From: Actinomyces israelii DSM 43320 | GTDB taxonomy: Bacteria > Actinomycetota > Actinomycetes > Actinomycetales > Actinomycetaceae | NCBI RefSeq assembly: GCF_000711965.1 | Contig: NZ_JONS01000002.1 | Coordinates: 124,001 to 188,000 of the forward strand | Direction of reading: 5' to 3' | DNA length: 64,000 nucleotides | Part shown: positions 1,053 through 63,949 of the stretch, one piece after another | How positions within the stretch are numbered: the first letter of the stretch is position 1 | Layout of the letters: every line of letters starts with the position of its first letter | Notes under the pieces: model-generated | Told to the model about the DNA's origin: nothing | Seen by the model: only the letters and a program-made list of their open reading frames with translations | The model's database searches: none | Translations under genes and position numbers: made by a program

Positions 1053-1178
1053 GCGTGCCGTCCAAGGTGGTGGTCGAGGTAGCGGCGGGTGCGCTCCCGC
1101 GCAATACGGCCTACCGTACGGCACCGGGCCGGTGCGCGCTCGCCGTGGGACCGCCCGGCGCCGGCCGCCCCCCTTCGC

Positions 1179-1212
1179 CGAGATCGGTCCGGTTCCGCAC
1201 CGAGATCGGTCC
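1179..1212 (-). repeat. Dispersed 22-bp-period repeat, copy 1
   Basis: CGAGATCGGTCC occurs twice exactly 22 bases apart. Read on the minus strand, the array is ACCGATCTCGG units ending in CGAAGGGG, the same polar layout as the other copies in the window. Confidence 0.8.
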
Positions 1213-12497: not shown

Positions 12498-12583
12498 ACG
12501 AACCGAGCTCGGCCAAGGGTCTGCGGACCCGGGCGCCGGGGCGCGCCGCTTTCGTCGAGATCGGTCGTACTCCGGCTCGACGA
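12498..12583. repeat. Dispersed repeat, copy 2 (hairpin form)
   Basis: CTTTCGTCGAG (from 12549) and CTCGACGAAGG (to 12583) face each other across 13-16 bases. The first arm continues into ATCGGT, so it is a terminal unit of the dispersed repeat. A weaker ACCGAGCTCGGC unit lies at about 12502-12513. Confidence 0.65.
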
Positions 12584-12659
12584 AGGGGGTGGCGAGGACC
12601 AGGAGGCAGCGGTGGGGCGCGGCGTCCGAAGGCCCGAGTCCAGCGCGCCGCAATGTGGC

Positions 12660-17239: not shown

Positions 17240-17265
17240 TCGACGCGGCGCCGCTCCCGGTCCGG

Positions 17266-17353
17266 ACCGATCTCGACGCGGAACCGGACCGATCTCGACG
17301 CGGAAGTGAACCGATCTCGACGCGGAAGTGAACCGATCTCGACGGAAGGGGAG
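17266..17353 (+). repeat. Dispersed 22-bp-period repeat, copy 3 (four units)
   Basis: Four units start at 17266, 17288, 17310 and 17332, exactly 22 bases apart. Each begins ACCGATCTCGACG; the first three continue with CGGAA plus four variable bases and the last ends GGAAGGGGAG. Units 2 and 3 are identical. It lies between two convergent operons, so it could also end transcripts, but single units are not self-complementary. Confidence 0.9.
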
Positions 17354-17432
17354 GCCGCCGGGAGCCGCGCAGAGGCTGAGCAGCGGGGGGCGACGCCAGT
17401 ACGCCGTCTCCCGCTGCTCGGGCGTCTGGGCG

Positions 17433-27993: not shown

Positions 27994-28053
27994 ACCGATC
28001 TCGGCGCGGCACCGAACTGATCCCACCGAGCCGATCCCGGCGAAAGGGGGTGG
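27994..28053 (+). repeat. Dispersed 22-bp-period repeat, copy 4 (degenerate)
   Basis: A clear 22-base unit starting ACCGATCTCGGCGCGG at 27994 is followed by a shortened unit, ACTGATCCCACCGA, and a terminal unit, GCCGATCCCGGCGAAAGG. The order, with a terminal CGAAAGGGG, matches the other copies. Confidence 0.75.
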
Positions 28054-31858: not shown

Positions 31859-31884
31859 GGGGCGCCCGCGGCCCGCGCCCGTCC

Positions 31885-31968
31885 TTTCGCCGAGATCGGT
31901 CGTATTCCGGCTCGAGATCGGTCCGTGAACCGATCTCGGTGCGGAACTGAACCGATCTCGACGAAAGG
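31885..31968. repeat. Dispersed 22-bp-period repeat, copy 5 (palindromic)
   Basis: Two units point one way (CGAGATCGGT at 31891 and 31913, 22 bases apart) and two the other (ACCGATCTCG at 31929 and 31951, again 22 apart). Both outer ends carry the terminal form, CCTTTCG and CGAAAGG, so the whole element is a large inverted repeat. It lies between xylA and the divergent ROK gene. Confidence 0.88.
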
Positions 31969-32037
31969 AGCCGGCGCTGTCGCGAGAGCGGTTCCTCTGC
32001 AGGGGTGGCCGACGAGGCCATCGGGTAGGGTCAGGAC

Positions 32038-54918: not shown

Positions 54919-55248
54919 CTCGGCGCCCGGGGGCGGATCGCCTACTAGGCTCCTCTGTCTCTTACTGTACGGGCGTAAGGAGCGTAGTAAGCAGCGCCCG
55001 GCTCACGGTCTTCTCCGGTGTTGCACATGGGAGGGCGGGGCCTCTGCGGGGCGGGAACCGGTTTCCCGCAGGATCATGCGTTTTCCCATCGGTCGTCATG
55101 TTCGACCGGCAGGCTCCCATGTGCGCTGAGGGGGGTCTGCGCACATGGGAGCCGGGTCCTGGTCGCCACCGAAAACACTCTTCCGCATGATTCCGGGGTT
55201 TCTGCCGACGCGGAGCGCGCGCGAATGTGCAACATCACCGCCCCGGGC
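54919..55248. other. Convergent gap with hairpin, no gene
   Basis: No gene is seen between the alpha-galactosidase and GH31 genes. The gap contains three copies of GCACATGGGAG or its complement, two of which build the hairpin listed below; the third is at about 55023-55033. Confidence 0.6.
55112..55153. terminator. Perfect 15-bp hairpin between convergent genes
   Basis: GGCTCCCATGTGCGC and GCGCACATGGGAGCC are exact complements, separated by a 12-base loop. Position between convergent operons suits a bidirectional terminator. The lack of a T tract and the extra copy of one arm nearby also suit a mobile or regulatory repeat. Confidence 0.6.
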
Positions 55249-61630: not shown

Positions 61631-63949
61631 TCAGTCGAGCCGGAGCTCGACGGTCTCGGCGCCCGCGGACGCCTCGACGCGCCGGCCGTCCGCCTCCAGG
61701 GCCCAGGGGCCCCGGGCGCCGCCGGCCGAGGCCGTGAGCGCTCCGCCGCGGCGGACCACCCGGAAGGCGACGGACGCGCAGCCGTCGTGCGCGGGCACCA
61801 CGACCTCGCGCTCCTCGCCGTCGGCCAGGGCGAAGCAGCGCAGCGTCACCCCGTCGGCCCAGTCGGCCTCGGGCCGGTCGAGCCGGGAGGAGACCGGCAG
61901 GACGCTGCCGGGCCGCACGTAGAGCGGAAGCGTGCCGACGCCGTGGCGCTCGTGCACCCACCGGGGCCCGACAACTCTCGTCCCGTCCCACCAGGAGGTC
62001 CAGGTGCCCTCGGGCAGGTAGACATCCGCCTCGCCGCCGGCATCCATGACGGGCGCCACGAGGAGGGCGTCGCCGAGCATGTACTGGGTGTCGACGTCCC
62101 AGGCCCCGCGGTCGCCCGGGAACTCCAGGAGCATGGAGCGCATGACCGGGGTGCCGTCGTCGTGGGCCTCGCCCGCCAGGCGGTACAGGTAGGGCATGAG
62201 GGACAGGCGCAGGGCGATGAAGCGGCGGGCAACCTCGACGGCCTCCTCGTCGAAGGCCCAGGGCACGCGCACCGAGCCCGACCCGTGGAGGCGGGCGTGC
62301 GAGGACAGCAGCCCGAAGGCCAGCCACCGCTTGAAGACCGCCGGGTCCGGGGTGCCCTCGAAGCCGCCGATGTCGTGACTCCAGTAGCCGAAGCCGCAGG
62401 AGCCCAGCGACAGCCCGCCGCGCAGGGTCTCGGCCATGGAGGCGTAGGTGGACTCGCTGTCCCCGCCCCAGTGCACCGGGTACTGCTGGCCGCCGGCGGT
62501 GGCGGAGCGGGCGAAGAGGACGGCCCGCCCCTCGCCGCGCCTGCGGCGGAGCAGCTCGAAGACGGTGCGGTTGTACAGGTGCGTGTAGTAGTTGTGCATC
62601 TTCTCCGGGTCGGAGCCGTCGTGCCAGGCGATGCCCCGCACGGGGATCCGCTCCCCGAAGTCGGTCTTGAAGCAGTCCACGCCCATGTCGACCAGCGCCT
62701 CCAGCTTGGAGCTGTACCAGGCGGCGGCCTCGGGGTTGGTGAAGTCGACCAGCGCCATGCCGGCCTGCCACAGGTCGGTCTGCCACACCCCGCCGCCGTC
62801 GGTCCGCACGAGGTAGCCGCCGGCGAGCCCCTCGTCGAAGAGGGCCGAGCGCTGGGCGATGTACGGGTTGACCCACACGCACACGCGCAGGCCCCTGGCC
62901 CTGAGGCGGGCGAGCATGCCGGCGGGGTCGGGGAAGGTGTCCGGGTCCCACACGAAGTCGCACCAGTGGAGGGCGCGCATCCAGAAGCAGTCGAAGTGGA
63001 AGACGCTCAGCGGCAGGCCGCGCTCGGCCATGCCGTCCACGAAGGAGGCGACGGTGGACTCGTCGTAGTCGGTGGTGAAGGAGGTCGTCAGCCACAGGCC
63101 GAAGGACCAGGTGGGGAGCATGGGCGGGCGGCCGGTCAGGGTCGTGTAGCGGCGCAGCACGTCCTTGGGCGCGGGCCCGTCGATGACGTAGTAGGCCAGG
63201 CGCTCGCCCTCGACGGAGAACTGGGTGCGGGCGACGGCCTCGGAGCCGACCTCGAAGGAGACGCCGCCGGGGTGATCGACGAGGACGCCGTAGCCGGCGC
63301 TGGTGAGGTAGAAGGGCACGTTCTTGTAGGCCTGCTCGGAGGCGGTGCCGCCGTCCTCGTTCCAGATCTCGACGCTCTGCCCGTTCCTGGTCAGCGGGCC
63401 GAAGCGCTCCCCCAGGCCGTAGACGCGCTCGCCCGGGCGCAGGGACAGCTGCTCGCGCATGTAGGCGGTGCCGTCGGGGCCGGTGACGTGGGCGACGGCG
63501 CGCGGCGGGCTGGCGGTCAGGCGCCGCCCGTCGGAGCTGAACTCGGCGGTCCACTCCGCCCCCTCGTGCACGGTGACGGCCAGGGAGCCTGCTCGCAGGG
63601 TGACGGCCCGGCCGGCCCGGCCGGCCTCGCCGGTCTCGCCGGTCTCGCCGGTCTCTATGGTCTCGACGACGCCGGTGAAGCCGGCCTCGCCGGCGACCTC
63701 GAAGCGGGGGCCGCGGTCGGGGGCGCCGCGGTGGTGGACGAGCTCGACCCTGATGACGCCGTCGGCGACGGCCCTGAACGAGGCGCTCAGGAGGCCGACA
63801 TTGAGGGTGTCCCCACGGGTGGCGACGGGGCGGACGGGGGCGTGGGCGACGACGGCGCCGTCGTCCTCGACGGCGAGGTCGCGCAGGCCGCGCGCCTTGC
63901 GGACCGCGTATCCGGCGCGGTCCATCCAGTAGCCGTTGGTGAACTTCAT
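61631..63949 (-). CDS. yicI: Alpha-xylosidase, GH31 (YicI type)
   Basis: This 772-residue enzyme removes alpha-linked xylose, as from xyloglucan oligosaccharides or isoprimeverose. It begins MKFTNGYWMDRAGYAVRKA, the typical YicI start, and has the nucleophile in DCFKTDFGERIPV and the acid/base in VHWGGDSESTYAS, both characteristic of YicI. The length equals that of the E. coli protein. AAGGAG precedes the ATG. The released xylose would enter the xylAB route. A short threonine-glycine-glutamate repeat lies at about residues 97-106. Confidence 0.93.
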   Translation of the reverse strand: MKFTNGYWMDRAGYAVRKARGLRDLAVEDDGAVVAHAPVRPVATRGDTLNVGLLSASFRAVADGVIRVELVHHRGAPDRGPRFEVAGEAGFTGVVETIETGETGETGEAGRAGRAVTLRAGSLAVTVHEGAEWTAEFSSDGRRLTASPPRAVAHVTGPDGTAYMREQLSLRPGERVYGLGERFGPLTRNGQSVEIWNEDGGTASEQAYKNVPFYLTSAGYGVLVDHPGGVSFEVGSEAVARTQFSVEGERLAYYVIDGPAPKDVLRRYTTLTGRPPMLPTWSFGLWLTTSFTTDYDESTVASFVDGMAERGLPLSVFHFDCFWMRALHWCDFVWDPDTFPDPAGMLARLRARGLRVCVWVNPYIAQRSALFDEGLAGGYLVRTDGGGVWQTDLWQAGMALVDFTNPEAAAWYSSKLEALVDMGVDCFKTDFGERIPVRGIAWHDGSDPEKMHNYYTHLYNRTVFELLRRRRGEGRAVLFARSATAGGQQYPVHWGGDSESTYASMAETLRGGLSLGSCGFGYWSHDIGGFEGTPDPAVFKRWLAFGLLSSHARLHGSGSVRVPWAFDEEAVEVARRFIALRLSLMPYLYRLAGEAHDDGTPVMRSMLLEFPGDRGAWDVDTQYMLGDALLVAPVMDAGGEADVYLPEGTWTSWWDGTRVVGPRWVHERHGVGTLPLYVRPGSVLPVSSRLDRPEADWADGVTLRCFALADGEEREVVVPAHDGCASVAFRVVRRGGALTASAGGARGPWALEADGRRVEASAGAETVELRLD
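63620..63657 (-). repeat. 9-bp tandem repeats inside the alpha-xylosidase gene
   Basis: CCGGTCTCG is repeated in tandem about four times with small changes, encoding Gly-Glu-Thr triplets in a surface-loop position of the N-terminal domain. Variation in copy number would keep the frame. Confidence 0.6.

Follow-up and report, generated by a model that had tools for sequence, protein, structure and literature searches.

Dispersed arrays of a 22 bp unit, often in mirrored pairs, between the genes of Actinomyces israelii and related species

Repeat loci in the window

The window, that is the whole stretch of DNA analysed, is 64,000 nucleotides long and comprises positions 124001-188000 of contig C2 (NZ_JONS01000002.1) of Actinomyces israelii DSM 43320, which has a genome of 4.03 Mb. 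Genes in the window were predicted with a home-made codon-model gene caller. The array at 17266-17351 sits between the 3' ends of two convergent genes and is one of several runs of a unit with the core word ACCGATCTCG, referred to here as arms, which end in a distinct motif, the tip. The features are as follows:

1170-1212, minus strand: single arm, with tip CCCCTTCG and two cores (1179-1188 and 1201-1210) 22 bp apart
12498-12590, no strand assigned: degenerate element, made up of a drifted plus-strand core at 12502-12511 (one mismatch) and a remnant hairpin
12546-12589: the remnant hairpin, CTTTCGTCGAG / CTCGACGAAGG, containing one exact minus-strand core at 12556-12565
17266-17351, plus strand: lone arm of four units, with cores at 17266, 17288, 17310 and 17332, then the tip ACGGAAGGGG
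27994-28050, plus strand: degenerate arm, with an exact core at 27994-28003, a drifted in-phase core at 28016-28025 and the tip GCGAAAGGGGG
31882-31922, minus strand: left arm of a compact palindromic element, with tip TCCTTTCG and cores at 31891 and 31913
31929-31969, plus strand: right arm of the same element, with cores at 31929 and 31951 and tip CGAAAGGA
55012-55248, plus strand: armless copy of the repeat family alpha, described below

The two arms of the compact element at 31882-31969 are each 41 nt long and 80% complementary, with a 6-nt centre (31923-31928), and the element lies between divergent xylA-like and ROK-like genes (named by eye). The first-pass annotation of this sequence had listed five intergenic loci with units that, in the best copies, start exactly 22 bp apart. 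All five are real and lie between genes, but two of them (12498-12583 and 27994-28053) are degenerate, and the exact spacing, which holds within the arms at the 17266, 1179 and 31885 loci, does not extend to a third unit at 28030 in the 27994 locus, which is out of phase. The pairing of inverted arms and the bipartite nature of the unit had not been seen. A 61 bp tandem duplication (80% matches) at 1273-1395 adjoins the 1179 array, and there is a 9 bp tandem repeat of the GCCGGTCTC type at 63604-63665.

Copy number, period and structure of the unit

There are 12 exact copies of ACCGATCTCG in the window and 25 with no more than one mismatch, compared to 8.3 +/- 2.9 at this stringency in 100 dinucleotide shuffles of the window, none of which reach 25. 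The complete genome sequence contains 640 exact copies, 319 on one strand and 321 on the other, with the reversed word present once. The unit is therefore not absent from the rest of the genome, which would have refuted the first-pass annotation. Within a 641 kb sample of this genome (270 of the 276 kb of C1, together with C2 and C5) there are 114 exact cores, where 3 would be expected by chance. Arrays were called from an exact core and in-phase neighbours with up to two mismatches; since an exact core is demanded, species with drifted cores, such as that of genome G005, are undercounted.

With spacings of 20-26 bp permitted, the period is 22 bp in all 51 tandem pairs of the A. israelii genome, and within-array spacing on C2 and C5 is 22 bp in 61 of 62 cases. 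Nearest same-strand exact cores within 100 bp are 22 bp apart in 50 of 53 cases in A. israelii, in 38 of 38 in A. gerencseriae (G028), and in 102 of 114 in A. massiliensis (G061, after removal of overlapping loci), where the remaining 12 are at 44 or 66 bp. The phase seen in the window is kept in copies elsewhere, the exception being relatives with a 23 bp variant; other species keep the core with different spacers, the period being either 22 bp (ATGGTTATTTCT) or 23 bp (AGGTGCCATTTCT, GTGCGTAACGTCT).

The profile of the unit was taken only from units flanked by exact cores at -22 and +22, which avoids search bias (18 units from A. israelii, 16 from A. gerencseriae, and 74 from A. massiliensis after removal of overlapping loci). 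In all three species the consensus is ACCGATCTCG-N3-CGGAA-N4, a direct repeat. Conservation per position in the 10-base block is 94-100% in A. israelii, 100% in A. gerencseriae, and 89-100% (mean 98.4%) in A. massiliensis; the 5-base block is conserved at 89-100% and 94-100% in the first two species, and its last two positions are weaker in A. massiliensis (84% and 46%). The centres of the two blocks are approximately 10.5 bp apart, about one helical turn, and the units are two turns apart, which would place the conserved blocks on one face of the helix. The bipartite conservation thus strengthens what the first-pass annotation had guessed from the spacing of the cores.

Spacers are hardly more alike within arrays than between them in A. 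israelii (7.24 versus 7.51 of 12) and A. massiliensis (7.43 versus 7.20), indicating that most arrays are not fresh tandem duplications, with a slight difference in A. gerencseriae (9.08 versus 8.47). Recent tandem duplication as the source of the units is therefore unsupported in the first two species and has slight support in the third. In all three species, exactly identical spacers occur more often within arrays than between them.

The distinct terminal unit that had been described is real, with the consensus CCCCTTCGY / RCGAAGGGG following the last core in 50 arrays, at which single positions are conserved at approximately 62-96%. An arm thus consists of a tip, such as CCCCTTCG, and 1-9 head-to-tail units, nearly always of 22 bp.

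Mirrored arms and lone arms

Arms are often found as an inverted pair in the order tip, minus-strand units, interior, plus-strand units, tip, the outer tips being CCCCTTCG/CGAAGGGG. Among neighbouring arrays within 1 kb on C2, on C5, and in 67 loci from a scan of genome contigs, the minus-then-plus order is seen 33 times, compared to 2 for plus/minus, 3 for plus/plus, and 4 for minus/minus. A second, partly overlapping sample has 18 minus-then-plus pairs versus 3 in other orders. The interior is 6-10 bp in seven elements and otherwise mostly 100-650 bp, in places being made up of alpha; one interior of 934 bp (L091) contains a gene. There are 1-8 units per arm in the sampled sets and 9 in one array of genome G030, and the two arms of an element are often unequal (6/2, 2/6, 3/5). 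An early impression that both tips of one element match fell to a permutation test, which found no left/right matching in 18 paired elements (p = 0.21, positions 0-12).

Pairs account for 66 of the 169 arrays in the neighbour-order sample, leaving 103 unpaired, for 26 of 61 on the A. israelii contigs (35 unpaired), and for 8 of 17 in 200 kb of A. massiliensis (9 unpaired). The 480 kb of A. gerencseriae contig C1 carry many arrays, yet only 2 of 31 are paired within 1 kb and 29 are not.

Interiors of the paired elements

Alpha, which fills the space between the arms in places, is a repeat family in its own right. It has a palindromic core of approximately 216 bp (213-217 bp in 25 of the 27 rows in which both ends could be placed), which holds the inverted repeat CTCCCATGTGC around a G-rich centre. 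Counting pieces, there are 30 alpha matches in the A. israelii genome and at least 40 in A. massiliensis, and none were found in seven other genomes; longer matches are 76-84% identical to the query copy. With matches covering fewer than 180 query bases left out, 17 of 19 distinct copies in A. massiliensis have both arms (4 of these with an extra plus-strand array between) and 2 have one arm. For the 7 copies in A. israelii, both arms are present in 2, partial or misoriented arms in 3, and none in 2, one of which is at a contig edge and the other at 55012-55248 in the window. The central hairpin of alpha is kept, with changes on both sides in 8 of 53 pairs on one strand and 1 of 30 on the other, which makes for weak RNA covariation.

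Three alpha copies of A. israelii (L170, L174, and L176, on contigs C81, C31, and C11) are 98.6-99.7% identical, with only parts in common, and their flanks switch inside the element. As two of the three are at contig edges and the breakpoints are within the element, recent transposition was rejected for these copies; the switches suggest recombination or assembly breaks. Two more inverted-repeat families, TGTCCGYCAGAATGACATTGG and AAAAGGTGGCTCCTACGCACTTTTAA, are present in interiors of A. israelii at C2:45150-45740, C5:77540-77960, C5:103100-103720, and C5:105740-106260. Between two arms at C5:60600-61060 there is an apparent internally deleted remnant of a PIN-domain gene (by eye).

Placement relative to genes, and folding

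Only 6 of the 114 cores in the 641 kb sample are inside predicted genes and 108 are outside, though 85% of the sample is coding. Outer array ends are a median of 39 bp from gene 3' ends, with 54 of 81 within 60 bp, versus 44% if the ends were placed at random within those gaps. Next to gene starts the median is 167 bp, with 6 of 49 within 60 bp versus 23% at random, these being rough distances, as the genes were called with the home-made codon model. The crowding at 3' ends fits insertion that is tolerated outside promoters, and equally a role at gene ends. Where a gene 3' end carries an array, the local hairpins are weaker than at other 3' ends (-16.4 versus -20.9 kcal/mol; n = 20 and 174; p = 0.02). 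Divergent genes, too, flank paired elements (6 of 27 intergenic pairs). In one convergent gap that holds a compact element in A. israelii, A. massiliensis carries a plain GC-rich hairpin instead.

Single arms fold like shuffled sequence (median z -0.3 in 58 folds of 29 arms; 23 of 58 above 0 and 6 of 58 below -2), which makes it more likely that the unit itself is read as DNA. The arm at 17262-17354 folds worse than its shuffles (z +3.4 and +2.2) and the short arm at 1170-1216 slightly better (z -1.6). The compact pair at 31882-31969 forms one long hairpin on either strand (z -6.6 and -10.7), and four compact pairs on the A. israelii contigs have z of -8.0, -2.6, -6.7, and -6.3. Rfam models gave no match to the window at the gathering threshold.

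Distribution among genomes and turnover

Exact cores are most numerous in A. massiliensis (877), A. israelii (640), A. gerencseriae (433), and A. ruminicola (G063; 264). The next five Actinomyces genomes have 142, 99, 67, 65, and 57, and the other 40 of the 49 have 4-41. Twenty-two genomes of other genera yielded no tandem pairs, and a scan of genome contigs found at least 67 loci, all in Actinomyces among the matches listed. A phage or plasmid origin was discarded, searches of viral contigs, plasmids, and phages having found no match to the repeat.

Among in-phase neighbours with up to three mismatches, the exact ones number 100 of 123 in A. israelii, 76 of 80 in A. gerencseriae, and 78 of 82 in A. 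massiliensis. The corresponding figures, all from small samples, are 14 of 21 in G030 (both periods), 0 of 4 in G014, 0 of 1 in G005, 0 of 1 in A. ruminicola, and 0 of 2 in G016. Where arrays are scarce, they seem to be decaying. One place common to G030 and G014 has 9 units in the former versus 2 detectable, with some drifted, in the latter; another has 7 units versus one visible. In 7 of 8 relatives the gap that contains the 31885 element in A. israelii lacks an exact-core array; the eighth, A. gerencseriae, has a three-unit arm there. Array-bearing gene adjacencies of A. israelii are common to A. gerencseriae in 1 of 2 cases and to A. massiliensis in 1 of 6, which is a small and non-significant sample, the shared adjacencies being too few for synteny of positions to be used (18 and 37; p = 0.11 and 0.30). 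Judging by these gaps, array positions probably turn over between species. The density of arrays is uneven within A. israelii, with 11 in the 270 kb of C1, 23 in the 216 kb of C2, and 27 in the 156 kb of C5.

Search for a transposase and for traces of insertion

The first-pass annotation had proposed looking for a repeat-associated transposase of the RAYT kind. The Y1_Tnp family is absent from all 5 genomes searched (A. israelii, A. massiliensis, A. gerencseriae, A. ruminicola, and G030), the control being positive in 5 of 14 well-known genomes, and RAYT was rejected as the owner of the arrays on this basis. The Mu/TnsB C-terminal domain (Mu-transpos_C) was not found in A. israelii or the array-rich genomes, with a control that was itself 0 of 14; it is present in 1 of 49 Actinomyces genomes, G010, which has 17 cores, and a lone core is at that locus. 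The A. israelii genome has four rve matches, and no array is present at any of their loci.

A scan of 104 transposase loci (14 + 30 + 60, several overlapping, with up to approximately 1.5 kb each side), plus L283, covered for IS21, mutator, and DDE_Tnp_1 the best 30 loci of longer match lists. A MITE would share its terminal inverted repeats with an insertion sequence of its host, but array units form the ends of none of these 104 loci, which are the best matches of long lists, and IS21, Mu/Tn7, IS256/mutator-type, rve, and DDE_Tnp_1 transposases were rejected as owners among the loci scanned. Insertion sequence ends were judged by eye in L157, L330, and L340. L157 and L280 cover a single place, at which an rve insertion sequence (resembling IS481 by eye) is inside an array, and a broken DDE_Tnp_1 insertion sequence in L340 is approximately 100 bp from an element; neither is the owner. 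The rve insertion sequence, at L157 1300-2376, splits a 22 bp array. L333, L330, and L325 each contain an array, some drifted units, or a single core, with none seen at an insertion sequence end. The broken DDE_Tnp_1 insertion sequence, on contig C1 of A. massiliensis, is flanked by a 191 bp direct duplication of 99.5% identity (L345 4443-4633 and 6348-6538), by which a compact array element was copied; long duplications are a trait of IS1634. Of these two insertion sequences in A. massiliensis, one has landed inside an array and the other beside one, which makes the arrays their targets, not their ends.

No autonomous copy was found in 641 kb of A. israelii, 480 kb of A. gerencseriae, 200 kb of A. 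massiliensis, and 97 smaller loci; where a minus array and a plus array stand 0.9-4.5 kb apart in these, the genes between them look like ordinary chromosomal ones by eye. In 18 paired elements there is no clear target-site duplication (k = 3, 4, 5, 6, 8, and 9; offsets 0-23), the test being weak because the copies are old. The best 3-mer value, a 44% match at offset 12 versus a median of 23%, is one of 144 combinations.

Comparison with known repeats and elements

Tm1, a foldback (FB)-type transposon of root-knot nematodes, is described as having composite terminal inverted repeats, in which an outer motif is followed by a variable number of 13-15 bp tandem repeats, together with a transposase-coding member and 9 bp target duplications (PMC3169594). 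The distinct outer motif, tandem short repeats, unequal arms, and variable middle of Tm1, as presented there, are shared by the Actinomyces elements, and its MITE-like members and recombination-prone arms were counted as further likeness. Inverted, unequal arms of tandem repeats are found in the paired minority (66 of 169 arrays), and the distinct outer motif, RCGAAGGGG after the last core, in 50 arrays. Unlike the eukaryotic Tm1 as described, the Actinomyces arms are mostly unpaired, and neither a transposase nor a target duplication was found.

The ends of Tn7-like elements are described as defined by inverted arrays of 22 bp TnsB sites (PMC8649781). Sites of approximately 22 bp, inverted at the two ends, with the outermost a few bases inside the tip, are features that the Actinomyces arrays have in common with Tn7-like ends on this description. 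The MuA sites at the ends of phage Mu are comparable, and Tn7 and Mu sites are bipartite. Unlike these, the Actinomyces elements are tiny, number in the hundreds and carry as many as 9 units in an arm, and no Mu/TnsB C-terminal domain was found in the array-rich genomes. Membership in Tn7-like or foldback elements is not claimed, neither a transposase nor a target duplication having been found.

The BOX elements of Streptococcus pneumoniae are reported as boxA-boxB(n)-boxC, with a number of units that differs between strains (PMC3049150). From this account BOX, too, is an intergenic repeat built of modules, distinct ones at its ends and a variable number of tandem ones inside, and unlike the Actinomyces elements it is not two mirrored arrays. 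To our knowledge the BOX module lengths include no 22 bp period. Neisserial dRS3, a 20 bp repeat with fixed and free positions, is reported in almost 700 copies, is a target of phage integrase, and builds mosaic elements with longer intergenic repeat families (PMC3898611). As described, dRS3 is the inverted repeat ATTCCC(N8)GGGAAT, whereas the Actinomyces unit is a phased tandem array. REP and BIME sequences are described as high-copy intergenic repeats, also found in inverted pairs, with an associated RAYT (PMC3733652). In place of a 20-40 bp palindrome with a GTAG or CGTC tag, the Actinomyces unit is a direct repeat, its single arms fold like shuffled sequence, and RAYT, which belongs with REP and BIME in that description, is absent from the 5 Actinomyces genomes searched.

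As far as the result lists were covered, the literature searched held no description of the repeat and no named family of this form, and the part of PMC12985086 seen mentions A. israelii only in a table. Neither that literature nor the Rfam search of the window placed the unit in an already named repeat family. The arrays form a large and real family of dispersed repeats in bacteria, unusual in architecture and undescribed as far as the literature was searched.

What the arrays may be

This family has bipartite phased sites, near-confinement to intergenic regions, amplification in particular lineages, and a constrained core. Our preferred reading, tentative at a probability of approximately 0.43, is that these are non-autonomous foldback-like dispersed repeats, the arms of which are phased duplex-DNA sites for one putative protein. 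A single sequence-specific protein, perhaps a lost transposase, would bind, or would have bound, each unit as duplex DNA and would link each unit to the next and one arm to the other, in the way that TnsB or MuA acts at the ends of transposons. Such joining may have spread the repeat between the genes of a few Actinomyces lineages, probably slowly by now or no longer in most species, and the copies would now change through gain and loss of units, loss of arms, and recombination. Lone arms may be halves of former pairs or may have been copied alone. The first-pass annotation had offered a protein-binding array or a small mobile repeat family; the former gains from the same-face bipartite conservation and the latter from lineage-specific amplification and orthologous gaps without an array, neither being proved. 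That the core is far better conserved (98.4% in A. massiliensis) than alpha (76-84%) counts against transposition alone, which does not predict such a gap.

That so many arms stand alone, most markedly in A. gerencseriae, is what most weakens the foldback-like reading and what most strengthens a close rival; that only 2 of the 7 A. israelii alpha copies have both arms also speaks against the foldback-like reading. In this rival, a quite possible one, the arrays are host protein-binding sites with a chromosomal job, such as nucleoid organisation, gene insulation, or a roadblock at gene ends, where protein is lined along one face of the array and selection, not transposition, keeps the cores. 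Nearly invariant cores with freely varying bases between them speak for it, and so do spacers hardly more alike within arrays (A. gerencseriae excepted), the many arrays without a partner arm, the crowding of outer ends at gene 3' ends, their avoidance of gene starts, and the weaker hairpins of array-bearing 3' ends. Yet most Actinomyces genomes manage without arrays, few positions are common between species in the small, non-significant comparison above, and a host array needs neither mirrored arms nor alpha interiors.

That the repeats are RNA hairpins at gene ends, terminating transcription or protecting mRNA, as proposed for REP, ERIC, and BOX, is improbable. The hairpins of the compact pairs, the convergent gap in which a plain GC-rich hairpin stands in for a compact element, the both-side changes in the central hairpin of alpha, and the slightly better than shuffled fold of the short arm at 1170-1216 are all in its favour, but the single arms, which are the majority, fold like shuffles, pairs are found between divergent genes too, and a hairpin requires neither a 22 bp period nor direct repeats. 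Ten bases in hundreds of copies, equally divided between the strands, could also be a DNA uptake-like or other genome-wide recognition word, spread by biased import or gene conversion. DNA uptake sequences spread through coding as well as intergenic DNA, unlike the present core, which is nearly absent from coding sequence (6 of 114), and the strict tandem arrays make this the least credible of the explanations, with very little chance of being correct.

A bolder form of the foldback-like reading would make this the first bacterial foldback-type element, palindromic, with arms that are helically phased arrays of bipartite 22 bp sites, on which an undescribed DNA-binding recombinase would act in trans, and with species-specific spacer dialects (22 bp and 23 bp units around one conserved core); in this full form it is rather unlikely. 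Bacterial interspersed repeats are usually regarded as hairpins, and the helical-phase signature here points instead to a protein that reads double-stranded DNA at hundreds of sites. With nearly invariant putative contact bases and free bases between them, the arrays are ready bait for such a protein, and they provide a natural series, in unit numbers from 1 to 9 and in species where arrays are abundant, drifting, or rare. They would tell whether the foldback architecture arose in bacteria too, and the variable unit counts might serve in the typing of Actinomyces. Near position 10399 of L205 (G030:C1:3055399), a 9-unit array is directly 3' of a coding sequence that retains its stop and 3' flank in G014, which looks as though the end of the gene had been joined to the array by a deletion in G030.
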